From: Cystobasidium ongulense | Lineage: Eukaryota; Basidiomycota; Cystobasidiomycetes; Cystobasidiales; Cystobasidiaceae | Direction of reading: 5' to 3' | Assembly: GCA_022835595.1 (NCBI GenBank) | Contig: BQUP01000004.1 | Location: forward strand, 1,736,001-1,800,000 | DNA length: 64,000 nucleotides | Shown: piece by piece, positions 40,343-64,000 of the stretch | Numbering within the stretch: the first letter of the stretch is position 1 | Layout of the letters: each line of letters starts with the position of its first letter | Notes under the pieces: model-generated | The model's input: only the letters and a program-made list of their open reading frames with translations | Told to the model about the DNA's origin: nothing | Database searches by the model: none | Translations under genes and position numbers: made by a program

Positions 40343-42438
40343 ATGGCTCGCTTCAAGCGCCGGCAGGTCATCCTGACCATCCTCCTCATCATAGCCATCT
40401 ACCTAGGGCTCTCGTTATTTTCAGAACAAGGCGCAAAGCTCGGAGTAGGCGCACCAGCATGGATGCCAAAACCAATCATTCCAAACCGGATATCACACAA
40501 GCAAGCACCGTTGATGAAGACACCAGTATACGCAGCTGCTCCTGGGTTCGAAAGCGCTTTGCCGTCGTGTAGAATTACAGATCTACCCGATGATCCACTT
40601 GTGGCGGAGTATGGACAGAATAACATAAGACTCAGCAGAACGTACGAAGGGTCTGGTGTGAGAGTGAGGAGAGTACTGCAGAAAGCTATCAGAGGCGAAC
40701 CTATAAAGATTGCAGTCATGGGTGGATCAGTATCAACTGTAAGGACCATATTCCATGGCTTATGCGAGGCAGACATGCACAAGCGTTGACTGACGGTAAA
40801 CAACATTACGACAGGGCCATAGTTTGACATGGCCTCACACAGCGGAGAATCATATGTAAGTATGATTCTATTGCCGAAAAATTATGCTACAGACTCTAAC
40901 TCTCTCTACTCGCCATCAGGCATCTTCGCATACACAAGTGGTTTCAAGACACCTTTCCTGAAGCAGAACACACCATCAACACAGATTCCGCTATTCCTGC
41001 CGTCACAGCAAGATACTTTTCCGTATGTCCCTGCATTGTCATAGTGTAAAGTCCTTTGCTAATCCAGCGAAACTCCCCTTCTTGCCTACAGTATTGCATA
41101 CACGAAACTCTACCTGACGATGCCGACCTTATTCTTCTCGAACTGGACATCAATCATGATGATCCAAGTGCAGAATCTTTGCGCTCCACTGAAGCAATGT
41201 ACCGGACTATCCTATCGCTTCCAAATCAGCCAGCTGTTATCTACATGAGCGTGTTTGCGTTGGTCTTGTGAGTACTGTCACATGGATACCTGCTAAGAGC
41301 ATTCTCTGAAATACTGTTCGTTATGCAGCCAAGATATGACTCACGGCTGGAGACACTCTGCTTTGATATCTCAGTGGTTGGACGTGGTCAGTGCAGCATG
41401 ACAGATACAGGATATCGCTGGGTAGTACTGATGATCCTGCGTTCTGCCCGCAGCCCGAGATCAACCTTAGAAATTGGTATCTACCCCATATCATGAAGCA
41501 TCCTGAGGCTATCCCACCCATGTTCCTCAACTTTGCAGATGATCTCGATCCTCGTGAGTCGCACACACATCTACCAAGTCTATCTCTATGAACGACTCGC
41601 TGACGTTTGACAATTTGGATAGGCCATGTTAATGGCAAGGGTCACCGGGCAATAGCAGAGTGAGTTTATTGGCGAACAGATAATTTATCTACAAGGGACT
41701 GACTTCAGCTTACTTCGCTTCGCAGTATGGTCATTGCCTACCTTCGCGAACAGCTTTGCATGCTTTTGCGCGATGGTCCGCTTGAGAAGCCGCCTTCTGA
41801 TCCCATGTGGCCAGGGACAGATATCTCAAGGAGCTTGCCAAGAGTGAGTTCCGCACTTCGGTACACATAACCGTTTCATACCGATAATTGACAAATACTG
41901 CATCAGCTTGGAATGCTCCAACCCTTTGATGAAACATCCAGCATGCCGGTGCTTTACCCGAAGTGTCAATCTATAACATCGACCAAATTCCCTCTTCAAC
42001 CTATATGGGCCAATGGCTGGGAATCTGTAGATCGAAACGATAAGAAGAGCTTCGAAGCTACTATTCCTGGTTCAGAAATCGTAAGAATTATAGGAGATCA
42101 CTCAGCCCGTGGAGGGATAGTAACTGACTTGAACTGTCTATTCCATGTTCGAACAGAGCTTTAACGTCAATACCGATGCAGGCCTTTTAGGCATGTTCTT
42201 CTGGATGACCAACAAAGATGGATTTGGTCAAGTGGCATGCTGGGTCGACGACGATCAGCGTGAAGAGCGTATTAGACGCGTCTCAGCATATAACCCTTAT
42301 CCAGCAGCATCCACATTCGAGCATTCTGGAGATCTATGGAATGATCTATCGCCCGGGCAGCATACCTTGACTTGCAGACTGGAAACTGGATCAACTGGTG
42401 GCAATATTTTCCGTATTGCAGCGACTGTTACGCGTTAG
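40343..42438 (+). CDS. SGNH/GDSL-hydrolase-like protein with signal-anchor
   Basis: This is probably an esterase acting on acylated glycans, but the substrate is unknown. The N-terminus MARFKRRQVILTILLIIAIY is a basic patch plus a membrane helix, so a type II Golgi or secreted protein. Exons join to give SGNH block I MGGSVSTGHSLTWPH with the candidate nucleophile serine. Later come LLELDINHDD and a block V-like DDLDPRHVNGKGHRAIAE with candidate D and H. After a linker, a C-terminal beta-rich module (AGLLGMFFWMTNKDGFGQVA, CWVDD) ends at TAG 42436-42438. About nine introns. It is the first of the carbohydrate-related genes on the right of the window. Catalysis is inferred from motif spacing only. 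Confidence 0.74.
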
Positions 42439-42843
42439 AGCAAAATACGAAGAGTCCATGTTGAGATCAAACGCAAGACAACGGGGATCGTTATATAGAT
42501 ATCTCGCACAACGCACAAATCGTTCTGTACAAACACTTACTAAACTGGCTCGTAAAAATGTCACATATAGATGTAGCATTAGATACTTCGTTGCATTCTT
42601 CCAAAAGTAATAGACAATCTATCATCGCCTCGCAACTATGCCATAGAGCACCGGTGGTTTGGACAATCGAAAGCTATACATTGTCGCACAGCAGGCTGGC
42701 AGGGCACTGGTGGAAAACGCGATGAGAAAGGAAGCATGTGCGCTTAAATTGAAACAAGACAACAAGAAACGTCGAAGGTAAACCGTGATAGAACTACTGC
42801 AGATACATGATGGACGATGAAAGATAGACTAGAGGTATCAAGT
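42439..42843. other. Convergent intergenic region
   Basis: This lies between the stops of the SGNH-like gene and H2B. No gene or conserved element is seen. Confidence 0.45.
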
Positions 42844-43423
42844 CTATTTCGTGCTGCTGTACTTCGTGACACCCTTTGTTCCTTCGGAGATAGCGTGCTT
42901 GGCCAGCTCGCCGGGGAGGATGAGACGGACGGATGTCTGAATTTCGCGTGATGAGATGGTAGACTTCTTGTTGTATGAAGCGAGCTTGGATGCTTCGCCG
43001 GCGATTCTCTCGAAGATGTCATTGACGAAAGAGCTGAAGGTAAACAAGGAAACCGGTCAGCATACAGCCAATGGAGTACAAGGCAGTGAGAATGAGCTGA
43101 GACTCACTTCAAGATCATCATGGCCTTGTTGGAGATACCAGTGTCTGGGTGAACCTGCTTCAAGACCTTGTAGATGTATGTAGAGTATGTCTCTGTGCGC
43201 TTCTTTTTGCGCTTCTTCTTGTCATCGGAGGCAGCTGCTGTCTTCTTGGTAGCCTTGCCAGCTTTACCGCCAGTAGACTCTATAAGAGGGTAGTCGAGAT
43301 CAGTATGGACCTTAAGTATCCTCAAAAGGGTAGTAGAAACGCACTGGCAGCCTTGCCGCCAGTTGATGCTGGGGCTTTTCCACCGGTGGAAGCAGGTGCT
43401 TTGGATGCTGGCTTGGGAGGCAT
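42844..43423 (-). CDS. HTB1: Histone H2B
   Basis: This is a core nucleosome histone. The start at 43423 opens [20 protein letters not shown], an alanine- and lysine-rich tail. The next exon carries [20 protein letters not shown] and [15 protein letters not shown], and the last exon [20 protein letters not shown], then ending [18 protein letters not shown]. The C-terminal KGVTKYSS contains the lysine known to be mono-ubiquitinated in fungi. Two introns interrupt the gene, unlike the intronless histone genes of many ascomycetes. It is divergent from H2A. Confidence 0.99.
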
Positions 43424-44210
43424 GGTGAATTTGGTGGTATGGGGAGGATAGAAGAAGAAAGTGCGTGTTGGAGAAAGAAAAGAAGCGGATGCGGAGGTCT
43501 TGAGCAAGAAGGAAAGCGTTGTTTGGGATCGTTTGTTTTGCCCGTTGCCGTCTTTCATTCCTCAGCCGGCTGGCCACCGTAAATTCCGAAGTGACCAAAT
43601 TGTGGCGAGTGTCTTTGTAAGTTATTGCGCAAGCGAGCAAGCGAGCACGCAAGCACTCCATGCATCTATACTCTAGAAGGATGCATATTAGGCCCATAGA
43701 GGTTTCTTACCGAGAACAAGGCGCTGTCACTCTAATGTCGAACCTCGTCCTGCTGTACCCCTGCGTGGAGCCGTACCGTCTACTAGAAGCAGAAAGCTCT
43801 TGCGTGCCTGCTTCCAACTTCCCACTGGCTTAGACCTCTTGCGTGCTCGTCCGGCGCTACTGTGCCTGCTCCGGGAGACTAAGGGAGGGCTGAGGCTCGG
43901 TGCATACTAATTATGCAATGCAAGACAGTGCTGCTGGCATATCAAAGCTGAATATCATTCTTGTGATGTATGCGAACTCTTGGTCGTCTACGCTGCTTGC
44001 GTGCTCGCTGGTGCTCGAAAATTAATGCTCGATTTTCGGGCAAGCGGGCTTTGGAATGAGGCCCGCCAACCCGGCCTGGTAATTGTTTTGAAGTTCGGTT
44101 GAAGAAGTGAGAGAGCATCATCAGTCAATCAGCCTCTCTTCTTCCTTCATCCCCATCCGCTCCCCTGCTTTCCTCCCCTCCGCCCACTCACACCTCACAC
44201 ACTTCCAAAC
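43424..44210. promoter_or_regulatory. Shared divergent H2B/H2A promoter with a repeated CTTGCGTGCTC motif
   Basis: The 787-bp gap between the two histone starts contains the 11-mer CTTGCGTGCTC on the plus strand at 43838-43848 and 43996-44006, and on the minus strand at 43643-43653. A 9-nt match CTTGCGTGC lies at 43799-43807. Four copies of a 9-11-mer in 0.8 kb is far above chance. A bidirectional histone activator or cell-cycle site is the natural reading, but the factor is unknown. It does not resemble the S. cerevisiae Spt10 site or the fission yeast AACCCT box. Confidence 0.65.
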
Positions 44211-44839
44211 ATGTCTGGCAAATCAGGAAAAGTCGCTGGCGATGCTAAGGCTCAGCAATCCAGATCCTCCAAGGCTGGTCTTCAATTCCCTGTTGGTCGT
44301 ATCCACCGAATGCTACGAAAGGGCAACTATGCTCAGCGAATTGGTGCTGGTGCTCCAGGTGAGTCAGGACCTCGACGAACTTCATAGTCTTCCAAACTTT
44401 TGTACTGACTTTCTTCCTCTTGCGCGTCCAGTCTACCTAGCAGCTGTCCTTGAATATCTAGCTGCTGAAATCCTCGAGTTGGCCGGAAACGGTAAGCTGC
44501 ATATCTCTTGCTTGATTTAATGTCTTGAGCTCATCCCATTCCATCTTGCTAGCCGCTCGCGACAACAAGAAGACCCGTATCATTCCAAGACATCTCCAGC
44601 TTGCTATCCGAAACGACGAGGAACTGAACAAGCTTCTCGGCCACGTGACTATCTCGCAGGGTGGTGTCCTACCAAAGTATGTCCACTTATTGTTTACTAT
44701 ATCCAAGCTATCAGCTTTTTACTAACGCACGCCTTCGCCTCGCAGTATTCACGCCGAACTACTCCCAGCAAAGACTGGTGAGGCCACCGGTGGAAAGGGC
44801 AAGTCTGGAGGCAAGGCGGCCGCCTCGCAAGAAGTCTAA
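44211..44839 (+). CDS. HTA1: Histone H2A
   Basis: This is a core nucleosome histone. The ATG at 44211 opens [20 protein letters not shown], followed by [60 protein letters not shown] and a [20 protein letters not shown] junction. It ends AAASQEV at TAA 44837-44839. The SQE plus a hydrophobic terminal residue is the H2A.X-type phosphorylation motif that canonical fungal H2A carries; here the last residue is V instead of the usual L. Three introns. A start-to-start spacing of 0.8 kb with H2B implies co-expression. Confidence 0.99.
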
Positions 44840-45356
44840 GTTAGTCGAGTCCCGCAGCGTCGTCCCAGTCTTCCGCTTCAGATGTAGCCATCGCCTCGTG
44901 TCGGATATGTTCCAGATCTAGTTGTTGTTTTCACTGTTCCACTTTCGAATTTCATCGTGCATTCACCGCAATGTTAGCTTAATCTTGTCTGACAACGTGT
45001 CGGCGCAAGTTCTTGCTCTCTTTTCCAATGACCTTCAGGGCTTTCTCTCCTCCACCTTATCACCATGTCCGGCGCTGAGATAGGATGTGTCGTGTACTGA
45101 CGCTCGAGGGTGAAGTGCTACTCGTTGAGACCAGCAAGATGAACAAGGTCAAATCCCGATCGCGGCATCGTCGCTTTCGGATATTCGCCTATGTTCGTTA
45201 ACCAGGAACTACCTGATTGACTGCGAGGACATAGACTAGAGTCGGCTCGCAATGGGCCTGCTATTCGCCATGAACCTTGGCTACCCATTCCACTAGAGCC
45301 GGACACCTTCGGACGCATACTGGACAAGCCGTGACAGGGCCGGGCTATCAAGCAGG
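44840..45356. other. Intergenic, H2A 3' side and GT92-like promoter
   Basis: This 517-bp gap lies between two plus-strand genes. No gene is supported. Confidence 0.4.
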
Positions 45357-46892
45357 ATGCTGCGAACACTCGCTATGCGTTATCGATATCTACCATTACT
45401 GCTCCTTGTACCCGCCATCGCATTATGGAAGATTAACTGGCTATTCAATTTCGACTATTTGCAAGCTGCTCCCTCGACTTTGACTTCGACTTCAACTTTG
45501 ACAGAAGCTGCAAGGCCAGCTCAAGGTCGACAGCTCTTCGCCTCAGAAGATCACAAAGACACTGTCTTCACCGTAGACAATGTAAACTACAAGTGGACAA
45601 CTATCCACGCAAACGTGTTAGAGGAAGAAGATAGCCGGTACATGGAGGTCCTAGCGTTTCTTGAAGGTGAGCATACCAGCTACGTTTTAGAATTGCGTTT
45701 CAAAACTCCAAGTCCCTAACTGCCGGTTTTGACTAGATCTTACCTATGATGGACCTATTTCTGTACATCATCAAGTAATTGTACCCCCGAAAATCGCTAA
45801 ATTAGTAGACAAGGTGACTTGCGCTTTCGAAGGCACTGACAAGGGTACGACTGCCTCGATACGCTACGAAATGCCGCATGCTTGGTACGCGGTGCTACTT
45901 CGATGTCAAATACCAAAGGACGTCTATCTCCCTACCAAATCTCGTGTAGACCTTCGTCTGAAGCGCTCAACGACTACTATCAAGCACGACATTCGACTCA
46001 AGCCATACGCAACAGCCAACCCCCGCAACACATCAGATTTAGCCTTTTGCCTATCACCTATGTTTGGAGAACTCGACCTTTTCAAGATTCTGGAGTGGCG
46101 CCTGCATCATGCTCGTTTAGGAGTGAAAACGGTGCATTGGTATAGCCGAAGACCCAACGTAGCGCTCGAGACTTTGGTAAGAATACTGAACCACGATGAA
46201 GGTTTGAAAGACTCGTGGAAGGAAGCATCGCCAATCAGTCCTGATACTTTTGAGACGGAACGACTACAAGAACATGGACTTTATGGAGATCAGGTGAGCC
46301 CATTGGTATACATCGCCGAGCATGCATAGCTGACTTGATTTCCTGGGGCTATCAAAAGGTTCTATATTACATCGACTGTCTGGAACGCTCCAAGCATCTC
46401 CATCCAACCCGTTGGCTGGCTTTCATCGATCTTGACGAGTTTTTCCTGCCGGAACCCTTCAGTCTTTCTGCAGTGGATGACTTCTTGGATCTTAGCAAAC
46501 ATGAAGATGTCGCAACAATATGCCTGGATCGAAATCAAGCAGACACAACGCCAACTCGAGGGCGGGAGACCGAGCTTCTCTTCGAACATCTGACCGAACT
46601 TGTCGAACGCAAAGAGGATCATCCAACAGATAATCGCAAATGCATGCACCGACCAAGCTCTCTACTTGTTCCATTCGTGCACTGGCCATTACTTCTCAGA
46701 GAAGGACAGCCGGGCAAAGACCTCGTGTACAACCGCGAAGGGGACTCTCTTCGTTTACTTCACGCATCTCGAAAGCCTTATTGGGGAGGCAAAATACCCC
46801 TCGTAAAGACAGATGAATATCAAAAGCACATCCAGCACTTGCGCCGTTCTGTCAATTATTACCTTCGGACGTACTCAGAGTTATTTCAGTGA
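45357..46892 (+). CDS. GT92-like (DUF23) glycosyltransferase, type II membrane protein
   Basis: A basic N-terminus and a hydrophobic helix (YLPLLLLVPAIALW) give a signal-anchor, so the catalytic part faces the Golgi lumen. The GT92/DUF23 pattern is visible: FCLSPMFGELDLFKILEWRL, HHARLGVKTVHWYSR, then after an intron YYIDCLERSKHLHPTRWLAF and IDLDEFFLP with the metal-binding D-x-D. Downstream are a cysteine-basic RKCMHRPSSL and an H-S-R-x-P stretch near LLHASRKPYWGG. The start is ATG 45357 or, in frame, 45375 (MRYRYLPLLLL). Two introns. The donor and acceptor substrates cannot be read from the sequence; known GT92 members transfer galactose. The family assignment rests on motif order. Confidence 0.74.
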
Positions 46893-47592
46893 TGCTGTGA
46901 GTAGTCAAGTCAATAGTGCGAAGTTCTGCACGTACGAGCAGGCGTTTGTAGCAGTCACATTAACACATAGAAGGGTCCGGACAATGTATCAAAGCATGTA
47001 GCACTTCACACAAGAAACAAATTCGTGTTCGTCCTGGGAAGTTGAGAATGCTCAGCAGATATCGTTGAAGAAAGTTAATAAGTTATGGTCTGGCAAACCT
47101 CTAATTTACCTGACTTGCCTGATCTTTTCTGCGGGGTCCATCAAGCCACGCTTTCCCAATTAGTACCGGCACTGCAAGTTGATCGGGAATGGGTCTTTGG
47201 CGACTTTCAGCTGTCGAGAGACCATCTTTCGCACCGGTATTGTGCGACTACCTGGCACATAGATATACCTAAGATCCAGTATCCCAACAACTGCGGTGCT
47301 GCTCTAGTCTAGTCCTGGCAAGCGGCGGCGACGAAGGCTCGATTGGGTCGCGCTGTCAGGTGTAGAGGAACTTGAAGGCGAGTTGGCGAGCCGACCTGCA
47401 CCATCCAATAGCTCGACTGTGCTGATGCTGGGTGCAGATTACTGGTAGTCAAGCAACACCGAGGCTAGCTCTAAAAAGCTCTTGACTCGACGGGCTCTTC
47501 CAGCTGAAGCGAGTGCGGTAGCCACCAAGACATTTACGCTATTATAGCAAGGAAATAAGCAAGCAGAAGAAGTAGAAGACACTACAAAGACG
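46893..47592. other. Intergenic, upstream of the GT43-like gene
   Basis: This 700-bp gap lies between two plus-strand genes. One CAGGTG hexamer lies at 47357-47362. A frame at 47085-47312 has no domain. No gene is called. Confidence 0.4.
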
Positions 47593-49233
47593 ATGCAAAG
47601 ACGATCATCCGTCCTGCCGTCTTCGTTCGCATCGAACAGAATTGCACGCCCTATTGATGGCCAATCTCCTAGACAGGCTGTCTCTACGGCCCGATATGTC
47701 CGCCTGCTCAGGCAGCTTGGTACCTTCGCGACCTTGTTTGGTGGATTCCTCTACTTGATACACCATACGGGTTCTTCCCACTCTATCAATGGGTGGCTAT
47801 CTTCCAATCGGAACCCATACAATGGTCCTCTCATCTGTCCGGATTGCAATACTTCGGTTCCAGGTAGCTACCTCACTTCAGAGTCCTTTGCCGGAGTCGA
47901 ACTTCCGTCACGGCAGCAGGTACGGAGGACTAAGCCTAATTCACCTACTGTAGCCAGATATCTTCTGCACCACATTGTTATGGAGCCAGTTATGCACAAG
48001 ATCTGGCTATCGTGGGAGACAGCTGGCAAGCTGCTCATCAACTATTTCACCCATCCGGACGTACTTCTGGCGTACTCATTAGAAGCCTTACGACTGGATA
48101 CCCCTACACTATATATGTACACCCGGACGGGACCAGGTGGCAAGCTTGCAGACACTGTGAAACGCATAAAGTACTTTTCGCGTCACGTGGAAGCTGTCCG
48201 CGGCTACGATGAGCTTATAGCAGAGAAGGGATTCTTGGACAGTGTGCCAGCCAAAAACAGACAGCTAGTCTGGGTTGTGGTAGAAGACAACGCTCAGATC
48301 GACCTGCAGCTAGCTGACTATTTAAGGAACACCTCTATTCGTGAGTGGACCAAATATGCGCTGGATATTAAAGCTGTGCTGACACCGATGGGCAATGACG
48401 CACTACTAGCTTACATCTACTTTGCCCATGGACCGACAAACTGGCTCGGAGTAGCACAATGGAACGCTGTTGACCGAGCCGTAGATGTCTTGCGGAATAC
48501 ATTTTACGCGTAAGTCGGCGGAAGTGCAAAGCAAAGGGATAATGCTGATGTATAACCTCCAATTCAGAGATGGGCCAGTAATCAATGTAGATGACGATTC
48601 CCGGATATTGCCAGAACTACTGAGGCGGGTCTGGAGAGTAGGTTACATATATCCAGATTCGACTTTTGCCGAAAGCCCCCACTAACGGAAATTGACAGGT
48701 AAAGCGGGCGATAACATGGCCAGTCGGCAACCTTGGACCACAATGTAGGTAAACGCTCACTCTTAACTGATTAGGACGCTATTGATGCAGTGAGGAATCA
48801 ATAGGGGAAGGCCTGATGTGCAAGAATGGAAAACAAGACTACTGGCGACTGGGTGGCCTGCCAGAGCGTGTATTTCCCCTGGAGTAGGTGAGGAATTTGG
48901 CTGTTCAGAGTCCGGCCTGACCACACCCTTCTCTTCCAGTATGAACGGATTTGCTATCAATAGCAGTATGATAGGCACGCAAGGCCCTATCGCCCCTCCA
49001 TCTTACGTCAATTTTGACCTCACCGGAGCAGAAACGGTATGGATGACTTGACCGTTGTCTTCCGCAGATGATAAGCTGAAATGGACATATACCAGATTTT
49101 CCTGGAGCGCATATACAGCAAGAGAGAAGAGATTGAGTGCCTCTGTGATGATACCATCGCAGAAGACTGTTTTGTGTCATGGCATAACTGGGAGGAACAG
49201 CCGGAACGAAATGTTCCAGGTCTGACAGCCTAA
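47593..49233 (+). CDS. GT43-like glycosyltransferase, type II membrane protein
   Basis: The N-terminus has about 45 basic residues and a membrane helix (LGTFATLFGGFLYLI). The stem is followed by a nucleotide-sugar-binding region with LVWVVVEDNAQIDLQLADYL and the acidic triad in GPVINVDDDSRILPELL. Then RVKRAITWPVGNLG follows, close to the WPVG segment of GT43 beta-1,3-glucuronyltransferases and xylan-type GT43 enzymes. MNGFAINSSMI matches the conserved GFAVN stretch. The frame, joined over at least four introns, ends NVPGLTA at TAA 49231-49233. Similarity is spread over four landmarks in the right order, so I hold GT43-like as probable but remote. It is tandem to the GT92-like gene and convergent with GT8. 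Confidence 0.66.
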
Positions 49234-49482
49234 ATCGAATACTAGAAGATCAGTTCAGACAGGAAGCAGGTACATAGCCGAATCCGAATCACGAAGATCA
49301 ATTCCAAAGGAAGTACTTCACAGCAATACATTGTTCAGATTCTGCACTGATGCCAAGCAAATCACCAATAATGCTTCGTCGGTCTAGTATGCATGTTGTA
49401 CAGTTGATTGCGTTACCAGAACACTGATATCATATACCCTTATACCTCCGATCCGAGTACAATTATTCCCTCTTATATTATG

Positions 49483-50660
49483 CTATGAAACCTCGCATTT
49501 CGCTGTTCTGTTCAGTGCGTCCATCTCATCCTTGACTTGCCACCAAAATTGGAAGATTTCCTCGTATTCTTTGCCATTCTGAACGTCTCGGTGTTGTGGC
49601 CACCAGTGTGGTTTGACCAGAGTAAAATGTACAATCTTGAAGGTTGGTCTCATTTCATTCCACAAATCTGGATATTCCATGCGCATAGCCAGATTCGCGT
49701 TGTAAATGACTGGTAAACGATGTGCATGCACGCGGTAGATGTCGTTCAAGAAGCCTTGTTCTGCCCAGTCCGGGACCCATTCTACGGTGTCCATCTTTGA
49801 TGATAGATCTTTGAAGACTTCCTCGTTCGGCTTGATGAGGAGGACACCTGCATTGAAGTCAAGCGTGAAGCCTCTTCCAATCCAGATATCGGGGACCTGA
49901 AACGTTTTTAGAAACTCAGACCCGAAATGACAGCACAAGAGTCATCGCTCCGTAGACTCACTGCTGCAAAATCTCCCGGATGGTCCCATATCTCATCAAA
50001 GTTATTCGTAATTACCGTGTCGCCGTCCAAATACAAGAGTCGGTCAAAGTCGGTTTGCTGCCATAAGCGAAGCTTTGTAAATTGATCCTGGTAGCGTTCA
50101 GGTATTCCTCCTCGAGTGCTTCTTAGCGACTCGACTGGCCTTGTCTCCCAGCCCCCAGCTTGAAGGATGCACAACGTTTTTTGTGATATCCGATCAGGGA
50201 AATACAACAGCACTCGACGTGCCTGAATATTTGCACGTTGAAGGGAATGCCCTAGGACTTGAAGAGAAAGGGTATAGTTCTCATCGTAAAGCGTCGATAT
50301 TACTGCTCTCCGGGAACTTGGGTCTGGGACTTGAACAATTGATGTAGATTGCAACGACTTCGCTTCGAAGATGCGGGGTCTGAGATATGCCACTTCGTAC
50401 AGCCTGACACGATAATGAGATATTGGTAGCAGGATGGGTTAATGAAGCACGGCTATAGATCTAGGAAGATGAACAACTTACAACGTTGCGACCATGAAAC
50501 ACACAAATATGATAGTGGTCGGGTACTTCCGAGGGTTAAAATAGCTTCGCCGTCCGGTCGAAGATATTCTGTCTATCTTGCTTAAAAGTGTTTGGCTTTC
50601 GAGCGAAAGCCTCCGACCATCCATGCGGTTTTCTTTCGAGATAGAAAGGCGATTGTGCAT
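49483..50660 (-). CDS. GT8 glycosyltransferase (glycogenin/galactinol-synthase type fold), membrane-anchored
   Basis: Exon 1 starts at 50660 (MHNRLSISKENRMDGRR) and ends with a membrane helix (TIIFVCFMVATL), spliced in phase to LYEVAYLRPRIFEAKS. The GT-A core follows: AVISTLYDENYTLSLQVLGH, YQDQFTKLRLWQQTDFDRLL, and the metal-binding YLDGDTVITNNFDEIW, where DGD is the D-x-D site. Then FNAGVLLIKPNEEV, WAEQGFLNDIY, and KIVHFTLVKPHWW, with the H-F-x-x-x-K-P site typical of GT8. The stop is at 49483-49485. The anchor makes it a Golgi enzyme rather than cytosolic glycogenin. Known fungal relatives act on glycolipids or surface glycans, but the substrate here is unknown. Confidence 0.85.
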
Positions 50661-52132: not shown

Positions 52133-53952
52133 ATGCTAGGTTCAGGCGATAGGCAGGCGTGGAACCGTCGAAGCTCTCGGTTTGAAGCGGTCTTGCCCCG
52201 TTCGTCTCAGAAGGAGAAGCCTGGGTCATCCGGCTCTTTCAAGACCAGCATGTCTGTCCCAGTCCGATTCTTGGTCAAAGCAAGCCGAGCACTTCTGGTA
52301 GCTGCAGTCGGTTCATTCCTTTTACTGGTACTGCTGAGAAGGTCTTCAAGCGACGATGGCGCAACTCAAGCTCCCAATGCATCAAATCGAGCGGTGACAT
52401 TCATCAAAAACCGCTGGACTTCCGCGTCTACGAGCTCTTCAAACGCAAGACCCGCGGAATGGGCGATCAAGGTCGCAGAAGCTATACTGCCAGATGCCAG
52501 AACAAGTACAGCTCAATGGGAACAAGAGCGACTCATTGATTTGGCCAAGGTAATCGAGTGCCGAGCGAACGATAATTGTACAGACAAACAGAAGCACGTC
52601 GTCATAAGTGGAGTTGGTCGGTGGAAGTGGAGTTTAGACGAGACATTCGAGAGACCTGCATTCTTCCCCAATGGCGAAGCGGGTAAGCCTGGGCTATAGT
52701 GCTATTTGTCTACCGAGCTAATGTACTCGGTGCATACAGTGCTTGGCAAATCATGGATATCGACAATCAAAGAAATGGGATACCCGTTTATTCACATCGC
52801 TGATTATTGGGGTGGTGACGACTCAGTCCGAACCATATCACGTCTGTACCGCGCCATCGGAGACAATGTAGCTACTGTATTGTTTGATTACGTAGCAGAG
52901 TCAGTTGGAAGACCCCCACGATTCTGACGGTATACGAGCTGATGCGAATACTTCCAACTAGACGTGTATGCACGCAAGAAGACCGACTTTGCAAGCAAAG
53001 TGAAGAGAATCCACAAGGGATACCTGAGTGGAAGATCTTCCAATGGTGAGTCACTGCCTCCGTGACAATGCACGAATTCGACTGTGTCTGAGCAATATGT
53101 AAATCTCTCTTTGTATCAACAGGGATCGTAAGGCTTTTAATCGACACCATGCAGTACCCTGTCTTATGCTGATTGTCATTTGGTATATCACACAGCTCTG
53201 GGAGCCGTTCCCGAACCAAAGTATAGAGAGCCATGGGGCTTAAAGGCCTTCCCCATCTGGCCAGGCGCCAAAGTCACCTATGTAGGCTTCGAGATGGAAA
53301 GCAGTTGTCAGGGCATCCCCTTCACGCCGCACGACAAACGTGAAAACATGATTGTGAGTACAGATGCTTGACACCGCAACTGCTGTGCCCGATTCTTAGT
53401 CCTATTCCTTAGTACGTGTTCGGCAAAGAGAAGCATTACTTCGATCCTGAGCGCAATCGTAATGCTTGGTCGAACGAGACGTACCAGAGAATAATTCGAG
53501 AAACCGGAGTGCGTATCGAAGCTGGGATACTGGACAATGATCCAGAAATACACATCCCGGATGGAATTACAAATGTCGGAACAGAGACTAGAGGTGACTT
53601 TATGAGACGTATAGCGAAAGCGAAGCTTCTACTAGGAACTGGACTTCCCCACGAATCGCCAACGCCAATGGAAGGTCTTTGCGCTGGAACACCCTTCGTC
53701 AATATGGAGCTCAATCCAGGATGGCATCAGCATCCTATGTTGGCCCGCGAGGCGCCGCCTTACGTGTACAGCGTACCAGCTAGAGACGAAGATAAGCTAC
53801 TTGCCGCAATACATGAAGCCCTAGCACACCCCCTGGATAGACCATTCCTACCTGAATTGGCAACAAAGGCTTCATTTATGGGCAGACTGAAAAAGCTCAT
53901 CGAAGGCGACTGGAAGGCGAGGTGGGAGACTGCTCGTTTAGAAGATGCATAG
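52133..53952 (+). CDS. GT18-like (MGAT5-type) glycosyltransferase
   Basis: The ATG at 52133 opens a short cytosolic tail and a membrane helix (RALLVAAVGSFLLLVLLRR). An in-frame ATG at 51857 would add 92 residues and is less likely, as it would extend a 40-residue tail to well over 100. The stem is serine-rich. Joined exons carry KHVVISGVGRWKWS and MYSVHTVLGKSWISTI, then YVGFEMESSCQGIPFTPHDK, YVFGKEKHYFDPERN, and LLLGTGLPHESPTPMEGLCA followed by GTPFVNMELNPGW. The last block is the GT18 nucleotide-sugar site (animal enzymes have VGLGFPYEGPAPLEAI there). Animal GT18 enzymes add beta-1,6-GlcNAc to N-glycans. The stop is at 53950-53952. Confidence 0.83.
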
Positions 53953-54400
53953 AACTATAGCACGACTACCGCCAGCATATGTGACAATAATCAGGAGTGT
54001 GTATAATCATAGATCACATGCCTTTTGTATGCAATATTCTTTATTACCGCAATATGTACCAAGACATGGAACAATCTTGTAAACGGAGGCAGCACGAGCC
54101 CTGCACTATTCTCGAGATCACGTGCTTTCAGCGATCAATCGTTTGCAGCTGTTTCCTCCTCCCAAAGGATATGGTATCGTTTGCACTGGCTGTAACGTTG
54201 CAGTGAGTTCAATGCAGCAAGAGAGTCGGGCCAGCTTCTCTGCAGCACAATCCCATAATACGCTCGCCACCGTCGTTTGGCAGGAGGTCTTTGCTGCATC
54301 AACACTACTTTTGACGACGCCTTTTTACGTTCTGTCGCACATGCATGAGCATGCCTGCAACCCACCAGCCTCATTATCGGTAGACTAGAACGCTCTCGAG
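53953..54400. other. Intergenic, BTB/CAP-Gly gene upstream region
   Basis: This 448-bp gap lies between two plus-strand genes. No gene is supported. Confidence 0.4.
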
Positions 54401-57400
54401 ATGCCCGACCGTCTGGCTCAAGCTGGCCGTCATGCTGCAATTGCTGGAGCAAGTGCCGCCACGACCACGATGATGTCGGACGCAACAGCACACGCGGTCA
54501 AGCGCAGCAAAGAGCAATTCACTGCAGACATGCGCAAGCTGCTCGACGACGCAAAGAGGTATCTGGGAGATGTATGCTGGCGGCTGGAGGGGGAGGACGA
54601 GCTCATCTATGGCCATCGCGGTGAGCTCCAGAGGATAGACCGCGTTTTTTTGCTCAGCTTATACTCTCTCTAACTCGGACTCATCGTTCTACAACAGCAA
54701 TACTATATGCACGAGCAAATGCAGCCTTTCAATCTCGCTTCCTCAATCCAAATGGTAGTGCTCGTTTGCAAGCAATCATGTCAGGCTCGAGTCTCTCGCT
54801 TCAGTCACCCACCTCGCCCATGCCTGGAGCCAGCTTGACCCTTGAGGCGGATGTGCGCCCCCCGTCGCGGTCTGTGTCTCCAGGTGCACTATCAGTAGGG
54901 TCCTTTGCAACCTCCTCACACTCTGTCAACCCCGCGTCTGTTCCGAGGTCGCCTATACCAGTATCTGGAACAGAATCGGCATTCTTCAAGAGCCTGCTCG
55001 ACTTCTTCTATACTGCATGTACACCCATGGGTGAAGTATTCACTTTCCTCTTCGAAGATAGCTCATATGTCGACAAGGAGGATGCAATGGACCGACTGTC
55101 TCAGGTGAACCTACCAGTGTCCGATCCCTTCACTGCGCACGAAGTTAACATGCTTTATACGTGTTGCAGGATCTTCTTTTCATGTGGCGGAGCAAATTGT
55201 TCGCAGACATGCAGATAAAGCTTTCCGAAACAGTTGGCTACATACAGGAAGACGACGAAGGCTCTTCCTCCGATACTCGTACCATAAGCGAGGAGCGGCT
55301 CTTTCCAGCCCATCGCGCTATTCTCGCCGTGCGCTGTCCATACTTTAACAGCATATTCCTGTCTCCGTTTTCCGATTCAGACTCCTCCCTCTTCACCCTA
55401 CCAAGTCCACCATTCACTCCTGCAGCTCTTCACTTCGTTCTGGCGTACTTGTACACCGGATCCTTCTCCCTCAATCGGACCTTCGATCTTGCTGTAGCCA
55501 TGGATATCTGGAAGTGTGCAACATACCTCAACCACGATCTACTGCAAGAAGAGGTACAATGTAGGATTGAAGACATGTGTCACGGGTTCCGAGGCTGCTG
55601 CAAAACGTGTCGCAGTCGCGCAGTACGTACATATGTGTTTGCCACTATGCCCGAAGTCAATGCCAAGCGTCTTCAGTTGCTGGGTAAAGACGTCGTTTTG
55701 GAGCATTTTGGCGAGCTATGGGACAAAGAAGTCGGTGGTCTCCCCTATAGTACACAGAAGGAACTCCTGGTCGACAAGTGCTCTCGTACAAATGCTTCGA
55801 ATGCAGCGGCTGCCATGAGGGGCATCATGCGCATCCGGACCCGGTTAGCAGGCGAGCGCAATGCTGCATGGGCAGATCATATAATATCAATGCTTGTACC
55901 CCTTGAGGATAGAATAAAACACTTCCTTAAGAACAACTTTGCAGAAATGGCAACTTCTCCGTCATTCATCGACCTCGTGGAAGGCATAGGTTTTTCTAAT
56001 GATGTCCTCGAAAGGCTCCTCATGTTACTGGCAGAAGGCTTGTCAGAAAAAAATGCAGCTTCAATTTATGAGCTCCTAGTTGGCAAGCTTTTGCTTAGAG
56101 AAGAAGGTATCGCAATGGATGCGCGAGCTAGACTGGAAGATGCACGGCAGGATATCCTACGATACATCAAGGCACGCTGGCTTGGCATCAGGAGCCAAAA
56201 CGGCTTCGAGGCTCTGGAGAATTGGTGTCTGAAAGAACTAAGTGACGGTACGTCGGTACCACAGCTTGCAGAACTTGGCATGCATCGATAACAATCTTGC
56301 TTTACAGAGCTAGAGCAGCCGGTCGATGAGCTGCTGCAGTGTTCGCCAACGATGCCGACATTAACGACGAAAACAGGTCTAAAATTATCAAACACAAAGG
56401 TACACAAGGTGGACAGCGATGCGTTCTCTATCGTTTCTTCCATAAATATACAGCGTGTGGGGTCTAGGGAACAAAAGGCTATAAGGCCGGAGGAGATTAG
56501 CGACATAAGTGCCCAGATATCAGACAGCCTCGCTAGCATCGATATCACTCCCTCCATACCGTCCACTTCCAAGCTAGGGGCCCAGCAAGGATTAGATGCT
56601 GTATCAGTACCGAGAAAGAAGGGTCCTGCGATTCCCTCGCTAAGGGATAGACAATCCCCGATAATGACTAAATCGGCACGATTACGTCAAACAAGTACGG
56701 CATCGAAGATGTCAGCCCAAGGTACTGAAGCGCGTAAAAGTGCTAGGCTCACCAGTCCTCCATCAAGTACCTCGCTCCCATCCAATGCAGCGACACCTAG
56801 TCATCCACCCACGACCGGGAAGAAAGCCATTGCGACTCCCTCTCGCCCGGCATCGATTTCGTCAATCAGCAATCATGTCATAAGTCCTGACATTGAGCAT
56901 CGCTCTCATGGAGCGAAGACACTTACTTCTCCCAAATTTGCATCGAGCGGGCGACCGAGCTCAGCAGCATCGACCGTCAGCAAACGACGGCCATCCATTT
57001 CGTCCGTCAAATCAGGTCGTAGTACTACTGCCTCTGCGAAGCAGTATCCGACAAAGAGCGCTGCCTCTCCGTGCCCAGCAGTTCCATCCTTACCCCGAAC
57101 ACTGGCAAAGTCGTCAAGGACGGACGAGGGCTCGCCAAGTAAGAAGGAAACCTCGTCGGGCGGGCGCACGCCACCCGGCATAACTCTACAAGTCGGCATT
57201 GAATGTGTCATCACGCACGGGCAAAGCAAATTTAAAGCCACCGTACGCTACATCGGCAAAGTCTACTTCGACAATGAAGACTACGTCGGAGTGGAAGTGC
57301 CAATAGATAACAGCGATCTTCCGGATGATCTCCAATGGACAGATGGCATTGTGGACGGAGTTAGAGTAAGGGCACGGGACTTTGTCTAAGCGACTGTCTG

Positions 57401-57706
57401 GATGTGCGCTGATTATTTCGTATAGTACTTCACCTTGACTCAGAGAAAAAAGTTCGAGATCACGAAAGCTCGCTCTGGCGTGAGACCAGTATCCAGAGAC
57501 TCCGGAGGCAAAGGCGCGGGGCGACCTGCGACCTCGACCCCTGCTACTCGCGGGTTATTTGTCAAACCATCTCAAGGTGAGGCAGAATCGCTATGTTGAA
57601 CGTCTTGTGCTGACGAATTCTAGACACTAGTGGTCTATGTCTTCTGAGTTTCCATCATCATATTTTGCTACACGACCGGTACGGAAACCCTGCTATTACT
57701 ACATAG
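54401..57706 (+). CDS. BTB/POZ plus CAP-Gly domain protein
   Basis: The ATG at 54401 opens an alanine-rich leader. After a serine-rich linker the BTB domain reads SKLFADMQIKLSE, then LFPAHRAILAVRCPYFNSIF and LHFVLAYLYTGSF. A helical BACK-like region follows (VAMDIWKCATYLNHDLLQEE, then a cysteine cluster CCKTCRSR). A long low-complexity, serine/proline-rich linker (56500-57160) leads to a C-terminal CAP-Gly domain: RYIGKVYFDNEDYVGVEVP, DGIVDGVRYF. The CAP-Gly is completed by a final pair of exons (YFTLTQRKKFEITKA). The stop is TAG 57704-57706. BTB proteins often bind Cul3 and CAP-Gly domains bind the C-termini of tubulin and EB1, so a microtubule-directed ubiquitin adaptor is possible but inferred. 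I know no standard gene name. Confidence 0.9.
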
Positions 57707-57739
57707 AATAATGCCTATTCTATTCATGAGAATTCTGCT

Positions 57740-59551
57740 TCATCGGAGACTGAACCGCTCGAAGGTGAATGCAGTCACTAGCACGACGGCTGCGCCTGCC
57801 GCTGTCATAACGGTGATGTGGTAGTTGAAGCATAGGATGCTGACCGCCAGGGTCAAGACAATAGACGTCGACAGCGCGAATCCCTTGGCCACGTTGTCTG
57901 CGTGCTTGATCTAATCGAGTATCATTAGACAAGCTCATGCTTTAACTCCACTGTTAACTGTTAACTCACCACGAGTGCTGTCAGCAATCCTCCGATTGCC
58001 TGAATGACTATAACGATCCATGTGAAGGCGTTGAAACCCTCGAAGAAGGTAATAAGGAAGTCCGTCGTCGTGCTGCTGCTGGACACGTAGTTGTACGCAA
58101 TCGTGCAAATCAAGCTGAACAATGCGAGTTGGATATTCTTGATCCAAAGCGAGGGTGGAGGAGTAGACTGGCTTGTGCTTTTGTCTGACTGTGGTACCCG
58201 TATCGCAGGGGATTGATCCAGCAAGGCTACGGTATGACGCCGGCCAGCCCAGGCAGGCACTTTCAAGTCGTTTCCAAGCTGCATTGGAGACAAAGTCGAC
58301 TCCAGCTGTACAGAGAGTCTTCCATAAGGAGCGCGTATCGGTTGATTCATCTTGGAGTCATCAGCCGCCTGGATTTGTTGCGGTTTCATGAGCAGCAGTT
58401 CGAAGTACGTTGCCGCGATCGCGCTGGCGAAGCATGACACGATGACTGCCGTCAATCCCATTACTTGCGAGCGGCTTGGCCGAGCGGTAGCTAGACGCCA
58501 ATCAAGGCTCTGTGTACTCTGAGGAGAATCGCTCGCTTGCCCGGGCTTGGGCGCCAGCTGAATACATGCTACGCCTAATCCGAGGAAGAGAAGCGAGACC
58601 CATTGAAGCGGGGAATATCGGCGGCCAAGCATGAAAACTGCACATAGCGCAGTAATAAGGGACTGTTCGGAAGTTCAGCTTTAGGTACTGCAAAACGGCA
58701 TGATCAAACGGAAAATCGTACCTTAAGCTGAAAGGTGATTTGGAAAACAGCCATACTCAGGTTACGAGCAGCAACATAGCTGGAGAAGGCTTCATTAGAT
58801 CCGCTCAAAGCTAAGACTCTAGAGTTTTCTCGCTCACATCAAGATGTTTTGGACGGAGAACAAAATAGCTGGTAGCGCCATCTTGTACAGACCCGGAGCT
58901 GTTGTCTGCGCCCAAACTTCCTGTAGCACTGACGCTTTTACTTGATTTGACGTCGAGGAAGTTGTCGCACTGGAATCTGTTTTGTAGAGCCCAGACCACC
59001 TTCCTGTATCGTTTTGAAGTGGCATGGGTGGAAGTAAGTTGGCCGTCGATGCTGAGCTCTCTGCCACAAATGTGCTTCTCCGTCTTGCGACATCTATGGT
59101 GACGGTCGGGCATAGCCCATTGTCGATTCCAGTCGCTTTCGACTGCCGCCTTTCGGGAAGATCTGTAGCTAAAGTCGATAGCTCCTCGGCCGGCTTGGAC
59201 TGCTGCGAATGGACTTCGCGTGCAGCGAGTGCGACAGACAGGACCAGCTTTGCGAGTTCTGAAGAAAACGGTAAAGGCTTAGCGCACGTGACAGAAGGCC
59301 AAAGGGTGTGAAAGACAGGCTTACCTGTGATTATGACAGCGCTTGAAGCACTGTATTGCTTTTCACCATTATGTTTTCGACTGGACAGATCCAGACTAAT
59401 AGACGCAATTACTGCTGAAGTAAGTGAACTGTAGAGATGTGATCGCCAAGGGGTGTAGAATATAGCAGACTCACACAACGGCCAGCAGTGTTGACTGCAA
59501 GCAGATAGCAGCTAAACTAGCCAACTTCTTGACATTCCGAACCGTATGCAT
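57740..59551 (-). CDS. Nucleotide-sugar transporter (SLC35A-type)
   Basis: This is a Golgi multi-pass antiporter that imports UDP- or CMP-sugars for lumenal glycosyltransferases. The start at 59551 opens MHTVRNVKKLASLAAICLQS. Exons then give SASSAVIITELAKLVLSVAL, LYKMALPAILFSVQNILMYV, AVFQITFQLKSLITAL, LGRRYSPLQWVSLLFLGLGV, LWIKNIQLALFSLICTIAYN, FFEGFNAFTWIVIVIQAIGG and IKHADNVAKGFALSTSIVL, the full nucleotide-sugar transporter series. Two hydrophilic inserts of roughly 70-100 residues interrupt the usual short loops. The stop is TGA 57740-57742. The exact sugar cannot be read from the sequence. It is divergent from the HtrL-family gene. Confidence 0.92.
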
Positions 59552-60614
59552 TCTCACAGTCTACTGCCGCTCTTCCGATAATCCAACACCGAAGTCAGGA
59601 TGCGAGAAATGCAAGTTGTTCGGCTCTGCGGGCGCTTTTGGCGAAAGCAAGACTGAGTGGGGGCTGAGCTGGTGTGGATCGCGAGTGTCAGTGGTTACTC
59701 AAAGGCTGAACGAGTCGAGATGGTCTTGTACTGCTTGGTTGCAGGATTTCAAGTTTGCCACCATGGCTTTGCTGGGCACGAATGCTGGCGTGAAACGTCG
59801 CAGGTGCAGGTCTCCTCAATACGCTAAATATTGTCTTTCTGCCTCGGAAGGTATTCAAAGGGCCTTTCAAACACTATAAAAGATAGTAGTAGTAGGCACG
59901 GTGTCCGCTTCAGACGCTTCATTGTTCGCGTCTGGCAAGAAATTACCGACACTCGGCAGGAACATTCGGAAGCAAATCCATAAAAGTGAGCCGCCAGGGC
60001 AAGATTTCCGGCACACCTGCAGGTCGCCGCACTGATGGAAGGTGAAAGGCTGCGGTACCAGAGTATAGCAACCGTGTCTCGGCAGTCCCTGTGTGCTTTA
60101 CAGTTTTTGAAGCTTTTGGCCCCAATGAGCTTGGCCGGCGGGGCAATACAATGGCGCAGGTCTCACAGGAAAGTGGGAAGACATCATTCACCAATAGTAA
60201 TGGCATACCGGCAGTGACATACCCTCTCTGTGGCACCGGGGGCAAAATGCGTTACCTGCTGGAAGGGTTCTGCCCAAGTATTCAGGCGTGAGAAGTGGCA
60301 GCAAAGGACAGAGTCTGTAAAGCGGCGCAATCGTACACTGCAAGGAGGAGATGTGCAATCTATCAACATCACTTTGTTCTTACACTATCCGCACTTGTCT
60401 TGCTCGCATTCATCGATCTTACGCCGACATCCCGCTAGCCACTACAAGCGAACTATTCGGATAAGACAGCAAAACTTGCAAAGCCTTGCATAGCGGCACT
60501 TGACCTTGTCTGGGTCCACGAGACATCCGGGACTATAATAACAGCAATAACAGCTCTCAGTCTGCTCCGTCATTCCACCAACAATTCTCGAACACTACTC
60601 TCACGCTTCACCCG
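59552..60614. promoter_or_regulatory. Divergent promoter: nucleotide-sugar transporter and HtrL-family gene
   Basis: This 1.06-kb gap lies between two start codons facing away from each other. A CAGGTG lies at 59801-59806 and a CACCTG at 60014-60019, the latter inside the perfect palindrome ACCTGCAGGT (60015-60024). Two copies per kilobase are only slightly above chance. I see no gene; minus-strand frames around 59943-60245 lack domains. Confidence 0.45.
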
Positions 60615-62169
60615 ATGTCAAACACTCGCAGCAGCTGCTCTTCAGAGACTAGTATGGAGGAACGAAGTCTGGAATCCTGGACCGACAAGAGCACACACAG
60701 TATGGCGTTGGATCGCGACAAGGAGAGCACCAGCCCGCTTCTTCCTCGGTGGCGGACAAGTCGACGACATCAAGCGAACCCCAGCGTGTCACGTGCTCCT
60801 CTTCTGTTGCGAGTCCATCTTGGGTGGCTCGTAGCAGCTGCCTTGTTCGTGCTCCTCTTGCTGCAAAGCACAACCTCGACATGGAAGGAACATCTTGAAC
60901 AACGGATTTCGCCGAAAGCCCTCGCAGACACCAATGTTACTTCGGCAGCTTCCATCGAGGCGAAGGGTGTTACGGTAGTATCTGCATTCTTTCTGGTTTC
61001 AAACGGGAGGAAGCATACATCAGATGGTGTGTCGCGCAAGAATCTTGATGTCTCCAAGCAAAGGTGCTAATTATTGGCTCTTTCGGATGAGCGCAGACTA
61101 TTGGCGGTGGATCCGAAACTTCCTTGAGAATGTGGAACAACCTATCGTCTTCTATACTTCGCCAGACCTGCTGGACCGATTTATCGAGATGAGAGGAGAC
61201 AAGGTGATCAAATTTCCCCAGTCATTGTCAACCAAGCCTGACCCATCTTTATGCAGCCGATTGTCTGGAAGACAGACTATGCCGATGCTGCCGATATGCC
61301 ACCTATCCAAGCGCTGGGAGGGGCAGAGTGGGCGCAAGCTATGGAGTGGTCAGATCCGGAGCAATATAAGCACGTCGCAGGTGTCTATTCCCCATGGACT
61401 GCTAAACCTTGGATGGTACAGCAAGTGAAAAACTCGAACCCGTACAACTCTGAGCATTTCTTCTGGGCGGATGCGGGAGGCTTCAGAGAGGAAAGCGTCA
61501 AGCACCATTTCAGAGGTCTACCCAACCAATTAGAGAGACTTTATAACGGTCTACCGGACGACACCGTCCTCCTAGCCGATGCCCTGTTGATATGGCCCGA
61601 AGGACAGGCCGGAGTTGAATACGCCAAAGAAGCCAGTAAGCAATTCAAAGAGTCTGTTTCTAGCTTACACTGCAATTCTGATTCGTTCTCTATCTTCCTC
61701 AGCGGAAAAAGGATGGATGGACCGCGGTGATTGCCATATTCAGGGCGGTTGGTTTGGCGGCAAGTCGCAGGGCATTGACTGGTGGTACGAAGAGACGCTT
61801 CGAATCACAATGCTTCAATCTATGCTTCATCGCTTTGCCGGAAAGGAACAAGATACTTGGACCCACGTGGCCCGACTCAATTATGAGAGAGTCGCCATCC
61901 AGAATGTGAGATCGCTAAGCACGTTGCAGCAGTATTTCGCGGTCTTACTGAATTTGCTCATGTTCATACAGAATTTCCTGAATAAAGGCGTCAACTCTAC
62001 TTGCGGAATAGACCCCTGGTTCGCTTATGAATATTGGGCCGATGGCCCAGAGTGCGAAATACCTTTATGGGATGGTCCGGCTGAACACGCTGTATTCGAG
62101 CAAGCGATTTTATCGAGCACGACAGAGAGTGATCCGAAATACCTCATTGAAGAAGATGGACCAGCCTGA
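60615..62169 (+). CDS. HtrL/YibB-family glycosyltransferase-like protein
   Basis: The ATG at 60615 opens a serine-rich cytosolic tail and a membrane helix (LGWLVAAALFVLLLLQS), so a type II anchor. The spliced frame carries the HtrL/YibB pattern: VTVVSAFFLVSNGRKHTSDD, DYWRWIRNFLENVEQPIVFY, then IVWKTDYADAADMPP, NPYNSEHFFWADAGGFREES and the acidic-aromatic core WADAGG. Two more introns lead to GGWFGGKSQGIDWWYEETLR and a conserved C-terminus GVNSTCGIDPWFAYEYWADG. The stop is TGA 62167-62169. Bacterial relatives are annotated as glycosyltransferases or polysaccharide-modifying proteins. Donor and acceptor are unknown. Confidence 0.8.
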
Positions 62170-62473
62170 GGTGAAGAAGGATGCGTTGTATGTCATAACA
62201 CAATTAGTACAGTTGCAAAAATCTCGTTAGTCCCGATATGGTGTTGTCAAAGGAAGACATTATACTTGTACAGTAAGCAGAACGGATTTCATGCGCAACG
62301 TCTAAGAGCAAGTGCAGACCAGCGGCCGGCCGGTTCTGTTGCGTGACACACATGATGCAGTCAAAAGGTAACATGATACAAGAAAGTCGAAAATTAATGT
62401 GACAAAGACATGACTGAACTGATGACGCAGCACAATGTCGTGCCAAGCTTGCAGTGCCACGCGATGAAGAATT
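62170..62473. other. Convergent intergenic region
   Basis: This lies between the stops of the HtrL-family gene and the DUF1996 gene. No gene is seen. Confidence 0.45.
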
Positions 62474-64000
62474 TCAGGGGTAAGCAGTGGCAGGAGACGG
62501 TTGGAACCAAGCTTTACTCTTCGGTATTTTACCCCCCCTTGTAGGGAGAAGAACAGTTTTAGATTTCCCACGTGTTTTGGCCAAAATTGGATGGCAAGCA
62601 GGCTTTGGGCCAGATGACCATGGTAAGTTCTTAAAGAGTTATCGTCTGTATCAGCGAAAAGCGACTCGTCACAAGGGGTCTGGCGACCACTTACGCATCC
62701 CGGCAGGGCTCTGATCGGTCTAGCAGTGCCATTGTACCATCCAACCTCTTCCAGTGGCCCAGAGGGGATCTCGTTCTCGGTCCTGCATCCACCCCAACTA
62801 TCGTAATCCATGTATGGTTTGAGGAACGGGCATCCCTCCCTACGAAAGTTTGGAAAACAAGCTTAGACCGCAAACTAAACTTGCGGATATGAAAGACAGC
62901 TTACTCCACAGGTTCTGTAACATTGATGCTGCCGACTGGACAGTTTTTTAATATCCCTTCCAGGACGCCACGTTCCCATCCGTTGACCATGTCGCCATGC
63001 AAGCCATATCCAGTTGTGTCCTGTGGAGCCGTCAGCTATGCTAAGATTGTACAGTCAGGTAGGGGCTCAGCTCACGCCATTGGCTAGGATGTACTGCTGC
63101 TTGTTCGTGTGATAAGGGACATCGGCTCTACAGCAGAGCGGCCAGTCAGCAGTGCTGGGCGAAATAGAAGGCTTGTAACTAAGCTGACCCGAAGTGAAAA
63201 CTCTCTATGAGAATCGAAGGCACCCGATGTTCGAATCCAGCCGGACACCAGGGCCCGTTAAACCAGTCACTGTGGATACCGCAAGCATTCAGCTTACAAG
63301 CATCAAAGAGCTGTCTCGAAGTGGTGAACACTGACTATGAATACCGCATATGCGCTTTGGGATTTAATGGATCGTACTTTTTGCCGTTCCTGGACAATCT
63401 TCATCATCAGATGCGCCGCTTTCTTATTATCTGCACGGCAGGTACACTCACCAGCAATTCGGCATGAAAATTTTGGTAACAAGCAGGTTACACGGAGTCG
63501 TTGGCAGCGTGAACGTCTGCTCGCCATAGCGGCTTCCATCTTCCGCAACTGTAGCGCAGCTGATTAGCGCTTTCCTTCCTACCTGATCTTCTGGCTTACC
63601 CTGCTCGCAATAGTATACCATGGCTGAGTCTTCAATCGAGTCGGGGTCGCGACTCTTTCTGGCGGGATTGCCTCCAACTTCAGAAGAGCAAGTCATTTCT
63701 TTGAATTCCGGTAAATCCAGTCAACCAGGGTAGAGCTCACCCATCATGAAATCGTACGGGAACGGCTCCATGGCAGTTCCATTCGGTCCATAGTCGTAGA
63801 ATTCATAATATACACGCGTACCTGATAAGACAAGAGGATACCAGGACATAACATCAGTACGAGCCGTTAACTACTTCAAGCGCGTATACGAACCCGTGTC
63901 CATCCCGATGTAAGATCCATTTTCGAGAACTCGGAAGACCTAGTGTGCCAATATAGGACGAGTGAGCATCGCTGTACGATATAAGACGAGAGTTGATTAC
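62474..64000 (-). CDS. DUF1996 domain protein, 5' end cut by the window
   Basis: The gene enters from the right edge, so the start and any signal peptide lie outside. Visible exons give the DUF1996 landmarks: RVYYEFYDYGPNGTAMEPFP, KIFMPNCWNGKKYDPLNPKA, WFNGPWCPAGFEHRVPSILI, YILANGDTTGYGLHGDMVNG and WERGVLEGILKNCPVG, then EEVGWYNGTARPIRALPGC and, after a 65-nt intron, NLPWSSGPKPACHP and the TGA 62474-62476. The order of FMPNCWNGK, HRVPSIL, GDTTGYGLHGD and LPGCN matches the family, which is secreted and found beside WSC domains in fungi. Function is unknown, and a cell-wall or polysaccharide role is only suggested by the neighbourhood. Confidence 0.8.

Follow-up and report, generated by a model that had tools for sequence, protein, structure and literature searches.

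Pathways for glycans are rarely clustered in fungi, and the best known of them, that for galactosaminogalactan (GAG), was solved because its genes lie together. Whether eight neighboring carbohydrate-related genes of the basidiomycete Cystobasidium ongulense likewise serve one pathway is the question raised by a 64,000-nucleotide stretch of contig BQUP01000004.1 (G000:C4:1736001-1800000), hereafter called the window, in a genome of 19.77 Mb and 19 contigs. A preliminary description of the window had listed genes for an SGNH-type protein, four glycosyltransferases (GTs) of families GT92, GT43, GT8 and GT18, a nucleotide-sugar transporter, an HtrL/YibB protein and a DUF1996 protein, and had proposed that they form a surface-glycan gene cluster. 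All eight genes (8/8) were recovered with intact spliced frames between 40343 and 64455 by a gene finder combined with Pfam and PDB searches (Table 1). The linkage of these unrelated, pathway-type genes exceeds chance, which is the linkage expected of a polysaccharide cluster, and we put at about one half the probability that most or all of the eight genes belong to a single pathway.

Gene models were obtained with a small splice-aware gene finder trained on the window together with a further 200 kb from this genome; its first settings split genes excessively and were replaced by settings with a raised intron penalty. The predicted introns had a median length of 67 bases and the donor GTRAGT. 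Three models were corrected by hand against paralogs or known motifs, namely the GT43 C-terminus, a splice site of the transporter and the HtrL N-terminus, and their frames stayed open.

Four predicted genes, encoding the GT92, GT43, GT8 and GT18 proteins, follow one another in uninterrupted succession, and all four proteins scored above the Pfam cut-offs of their families. The GT92 protein matched PF01697 with 58.8 bits (8.1e-16) against a gathering cut-off of 23, and a PDB sequence search aligned it with a plant galactan synthase (8d3t, 9.8e-4). The corrected GT43 model reached 71.4 bits for PF03360 (1.2e-19, cut-off 27), and its metal-binding DDD motif was aligned with that of a 3-beta-glucuronosyltransferase among PDB sequences (2d0j, 1.1e-7, with the uncorrected C-terminus in the query). 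The GT8 model, which includes a DGD sequence of the DxD type, gave 37.2 bits for PF01501 (3.2e-9, cut-off 24.3), and its closest solved proteins were Gat1 (6mw5, 9.3e-22) and glycogenin-2 (4e-15). The GT18 protein gave 46.3 bits for PF15024 (3.1e-12, cut-off 28), with the best stretch at 250-372 of the 557 profile positions, and resembled MGAT5 (9f5h, 7.8e-7) over residues 255-383. Its model holds a doubtful 5-base exon at 53123-53127, which is either a real micro-exon or a modelling error.

Altogether, seven of the eight family identities were supported and that of HtrL was weak. The corrected transporter model matched PF04142 with 222.2 bits (1.2e-65, cut-off 27) and the CMP-sialic acid transporter 6oh4 at 5.7e-36. 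The DUF1996 protein covered the full profile of PF09362 (1-237 of 237; 152 bits, 3.7e-44, cut-off 27) and had no PDB match at E<=1. No Pfam family was found for the SGNH protein at E<=1; it matched the solved GDSL-like protein 6hfz at 2.1e-12 and kept the GGS (GGSVS) and DxxH (DPRH) motifs, corresponding to the block I Ser and the block V DxxH that mark SGNH/GDSL hydrolases, and it was assigned to that group. Its C-terminal domain is common to two paralogs (C1:2971677-2973419 and C10:705801-706715). The paralog on C10 (L050:334-1549), whose model is without an N-terminus, reads DPIL where the window protein reads DPRH, so that its catalytic His may be gone. The HtrL/YibB identity was matched in Pfam (PF09612) at 4e-4 over 28 residues only, with 20.5 bits under the cut-off of 24.1, and a PDB search with an N-terminally short model returned a single, implausible weak match.

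The best cross match among the eight proteins in an all-against-all BLASTP had an E-value of 0.15; since the proteins are mutually unrelated, tandem duplication is excluded, in agreement with the preliminary description. To set the grouping against chance, GT genes were placed at random among about 6,900 genes, a number extrapolated from a 264-kb sample, in 5000 trials with totals of 41, 70, 98 and 150 GT genes. Basidiomycetes have 69.5 GT genes on average (range 41-95), and Microbotryum has 98 (PMC4469406). Four consecutive GTs arose in 0, 0, 1 and 5 of the 5000 placements, respectively, and five GTs within nine genes, with HtrL counted as a GT, in 0, 0, 1 and 9. The looser criterion of four GTs within nine genes was reached in 0.04%, 0.3%, 1.5% and 6.9% of placements. 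Around the cluster, no GT was found among 30 of the 43 other models (score >=15, surrounding 164 kb), which were scanned with the longest exon only; apart from one sub-threshold hexapeptide match, the scan turned up a single glycosyl-hydrolase core and a single TPT-family transporter, both at least 30 kb from the cluster. One GT90 lay in the C2 sample stretch, outside the 30 scanned neighbors.

Several of these families are also reported to be rare in fungi. Of 103 fungi tabulated, 4 have GT18 and 3 have GT43, every one of these being a member of the Basidiomycota (PMC3652786), and GT92 was counted five times in Microbotryum and once each in Sporobolomyces and Mixia, with none in the other basidiomycetes listed (PMC4469406). 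The presence of GT18, GT43 and GT92 next to each other in one cluster is notable, and the three families are better known from animals and plants.

How the genes might work together can be outlined from their families. The explanation that we favor is that the eight-gene cluster acts as one Golgi glycan-decorating module, and we give it an even chance of being right. In such a module, the SLC35A-type carrier would import a uridine diphosphate (UDP) sugar, UDP-galactose (UDP-Gal) or UDP-N-acetylglucosamine (UDP-GlcNAc), into the Golgi, where anchored transferases would lengthen side chains with galactosyl-type (GT92), glucuronosyl- or xylosyl-type (GT43) and GlcNAc-type (GT18) activity, perhaps together with the HtrL-like protein. 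These sugar types are taken from the activities of other family members. The backbone would be made elsewhere and only decorated by the cluster, the anchored SGNH protein would add or remove acyl groups, and the DUF1996 protein would be secreted and act at the wall. The GT8 protein lies near Gat1 and glycogenin among solved proteins and showed no anchor; it may be cytosolic, or else would carry an undetected anchor.

Membrane anchors were sought by a 19-residue hydropathy scan with a threshold of 1.6. N-terminal anchors, as in type II proteins of the Golgi, were found in the SGNH, GT92 and GT18 proteins, and the transporter showed several membrane spans; the rebuilt HtrL model has a hydrophobic N-terminal stretch, judged by eye, and the DUF1996 protein has a signal-peptide-like start, located in the flank. 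The statement that most of the proteins have signal-anchors was roughly borne out, though not for GT8: anchors were clear in four of the eight (SGNH, GT92, GT18 and HtrL), the hydrophobic stretch of GT43 being weak and under the threshold and GT8 having none. From these predictions, four of the six enzymes would be placed in the Golgi, whereas such a placement is uncertain for GT43 and has no support for GT8. An upstream anchor exon of GT8 was sought in three frames, and hydrophobic stretches were present, none of which could be joined with confidence.

Several results weigh against a single module. Besides the unanchored GT8 model and the HtrL match below its cut-off, the cluster contains no recognizable polymerase, epimerase or donor-making enzyme; for this reason, the earlier claim of a complete set was too strong, its inclusion of donor transport and a secreted protein being borne out by the SLC35A-type transporter and the DUF1996 protein. 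The members lie on mixed strands with housekeeping genes between them. The promoters can be read both ways. The word AGCGGC occurred within 500 bp upstream of 6/8 cluster genes versus 4/71 other genes and in 0/3 promoters of the intervening genes, tested to 800 bp, and an equally strong 6-mer was obtained in 5/500 random gene sets. With longer upstream regions the background rose, to 6/8 versus 16/71 at 800 bp and 7/8 versus 20/71 at 1000 bp, and neither of the longer words stood out: among 60 null sets, 8 did as well as the best 7-mer and 7 as well as the best 8-mer. Since three word lengths were tried, the promoter evidence is weak, and this one 6-mer only faintly suggests that the cluster genes might be co-regulated.

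The same families also occur apart from each other. Searches of the genome at E<=0.001 were made exon by exon, so that all counts are lower bounds. At least five places were found for GT8, one of which looks like a UGGT, at least four for GT92, and at least two for GT43 besides the window gene, plus a tandem neighbor at C4:802k; there were at least five transporter genes and at least three SGNH genes, and outside the window there were at least five DUF1996 matches. The window copies of GT18 and HtrL were the only matches. The two GT43 genes side by side (L026, C4 ~801-804k) have a GT90 gene (C4:818303-818977) about 16 kb off. The paralogs of SGNH, GT43, GT92, GT8, the transporter and DUF1996 sit at unlinked places, from which it follows that linkage is not required for these families. 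In favor of the module, no two of the eight families lay less than 24 kb apart outside the window among the matches found; the closest case was a GT8 gene on C2 with a transporter gene some 54 kb away. When GT69, GT90 and GT32 genes were added to the count, two pairs within 5 kb were found elsewhere (SGNH/GT69 on C10 and DUF1996/GT32 on C2), and at least two such pairs arose in 108/5000 random placements; there were three pairs within 20 kb (362/5000) and five within 60 kb (785/5000), showing no clear excess. The close pairs are a hint that the SGNH and DUF1996 families keep glycan company elsewhere. On C10, a CAP59/GT69-family gene lies about 3 kb from the SGNH paralog (G000:C10:705801-710692), and on C2, a GT32 gene lies about 4 kb from three DUF1996 matches spanning about 14 kb (G000:C2:1845656-1863452).

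Some of these observations lend weight to a different explanation, in which the genes are neighbors without a common product, each enzyme serving a different glycan, and the linkage reflects chromatin neighborhood, history or drift. The mixed strands, the interspersed H2A/H2B and BTB/CAP-Gly genes, the seemingly unanchored GT8, the unlinked paralogs and the weak promoter evidence would all fit it, whereas the density of the genes is hard to reach by random placement and several of the families represented are reported to be rare in fungi; we regard it as a serious explanation, though one with somewhat less than an even chance of being right. A division into two units side by side, with GT92-GT43-GT8-GT18 on the left, DUF1996 and the divergently oriented transporter and HtrL genes on the right and SGNH as a separate neighbor, would fit the BTB/CAP-Gly region that divides the set and the divergent intergenic stretches of 1.06 kb (transporter/HtrL) and 1.75 kb (GT8/GT18), but AGCGGC is present on both sides of that split, and we consider this division improbable. 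We consider it very improbable that the grouping arose by chance in a genome rich in GTs: GT totals can be large, only four GTs are certain if HtrL is excluded, and the looser criterion is reached appreciably at the two highest totals, but four strictly consecutive GTs hardly ever arose at those same totals and the scanned neighbors contained no GT.

Comparison with known systems places the proposed Golgi module beside two fungal precedents. The GAG cluster of Aspergillus fumigatus is likewise a fungal set of non-homologous genes, combining a GT with a modifying enzyme for one exopolysaccharide, and its authors called such clustering relatively unusual in fungi (PMC4817252). That cluster consists of five co-regulated genes, the epimerase gene uge3, gtb3, agd3, ega3 and sph3, none of which, compared by name, matches the families found here; the present cluster has four or five different GTs and a transporter instead. 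The co-regulation and product of the GAG cluster are proven (PMC4817252), and those of the present cluster are putative. The capsule of Cryptococcus neoformans resembles the proposed product as a basidiomycete Golgi-type glycan with Gal, glucuronic acid (GlcA), xylose (Xyl) and O-acetyl groups, for which the UDP-Gal transporter UGT1 is required, but its known enzymes come from other families (Cxt, Cap59, Ggt2 of GT31, Cgm1 and Cas; PMC12493134, PMC11150766). Tremella and Cyphobasidium carry homologues of the CAP genes, and GT18, GT43 and GT92 are unmentioned in the main text of that report (PMC8355462). In the present genome, genes of the CAP59 and CAP10/GT90 families lie outside the window. 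With the animal enzymes for proteoglycans and N-glycans (GT43 B3GAT, GT18 MGAT5 and SLC35A), the similarity is one of catalytic domains with conserved motifs; since the E-values are modest (1e-7, 8e-7) and GT18 aligned over 129 residues only, acceptor specificity is not transferable from them. No description of this gene set was found in searches of the open-access PMC literature.

A more specific form of the module would be a dedicated basidiomycete Golgi cluster for an undescribed heteroglycan that is acidic and acylated and bears side residues of Gal, GlcNAc and GlcA (or Xyl); the fungal GT43 would then be a glucuronosyltransferase working with GT92 and GT18. We advance this tentatively and consider it rather unlikely in full. 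A GlcA donor could be available, since the genome has a gene of the UDP-glucose dehydrogenase family on C5. Excerpts of the Cryptococcus papers name no enzyme for fungal glucuronosyl transfer (PMC12493134, PMC11150766), and the cluster, if this proposal is true, would offer a direct genetic handle on both that reaction and the surface glycan.

Table 1. Predicted genes of the cluster and intervening genes (positions in the window)
Feature	Position	Strand	Remarks
GDSL/SGNH-type protein	40343..42438	+	494 amino acids (aa), 10-exon model, anchor residues 9-27
GT92 glycosyltransferase	45357..46892	+	466 aa, anchor residues 12-30, DLDEF motif
GT43 glycosyltransferase	47593..49233	+	425 aa, corrected 7-exon model, DDD motif, stop codon 49231-49233
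GT8 glycosyltransferase	49483..50495	-	281 aa, first exon uncertain
GT18 glycosyltransferase	52250..53952	+	459 aa, anchor residues 11-29
Nucleotide-sugar transporter (SLC35A type)	57740..59551	-	491 aa, corrected 6-exon model
HtrL/YibB-like protein	60615..62169	+	432 aa, N-terminal exon 60615-61026 joined to 61097, splice sites GTGTGT/GCGCAG
DUF1996 protein	62631..64000, runs on to ~64455 past the window	-	336 aa, predicted secreted
Histone H2B	42844..43558	-	3-exon model, identified by eye; intervening gene
Histone H2A	44211..44839	+	4-exon model, identified by eye; intervening gene
BTB and CAP-Gly region	54401..57706	+	Pfam BTB 3.2e-4, CAP_GLY 1.1e-7; not carbohydrate related

The intervening genes were those of the preliminary description, a histone pair and a BTB/CAP-Gly gene, except that the latter was predicted as two adjacent models, which are possibly a single gene. 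No repeats of at least 40 bases were found in 36000-64000 and no tRNA in the window. Recent transfer was considered and showed no sign, the GC content at third codon positions being 0.46-0.57 in seven cluster models against a flank mean of 0.502 (standard deviation 0.061). The cluster is bordered on the left by a Polo-box kinase gene (window 36087-38999) and on the right by a 2-oxoacid dehydrogenase acyltransferase gene (flank 65131-67741).

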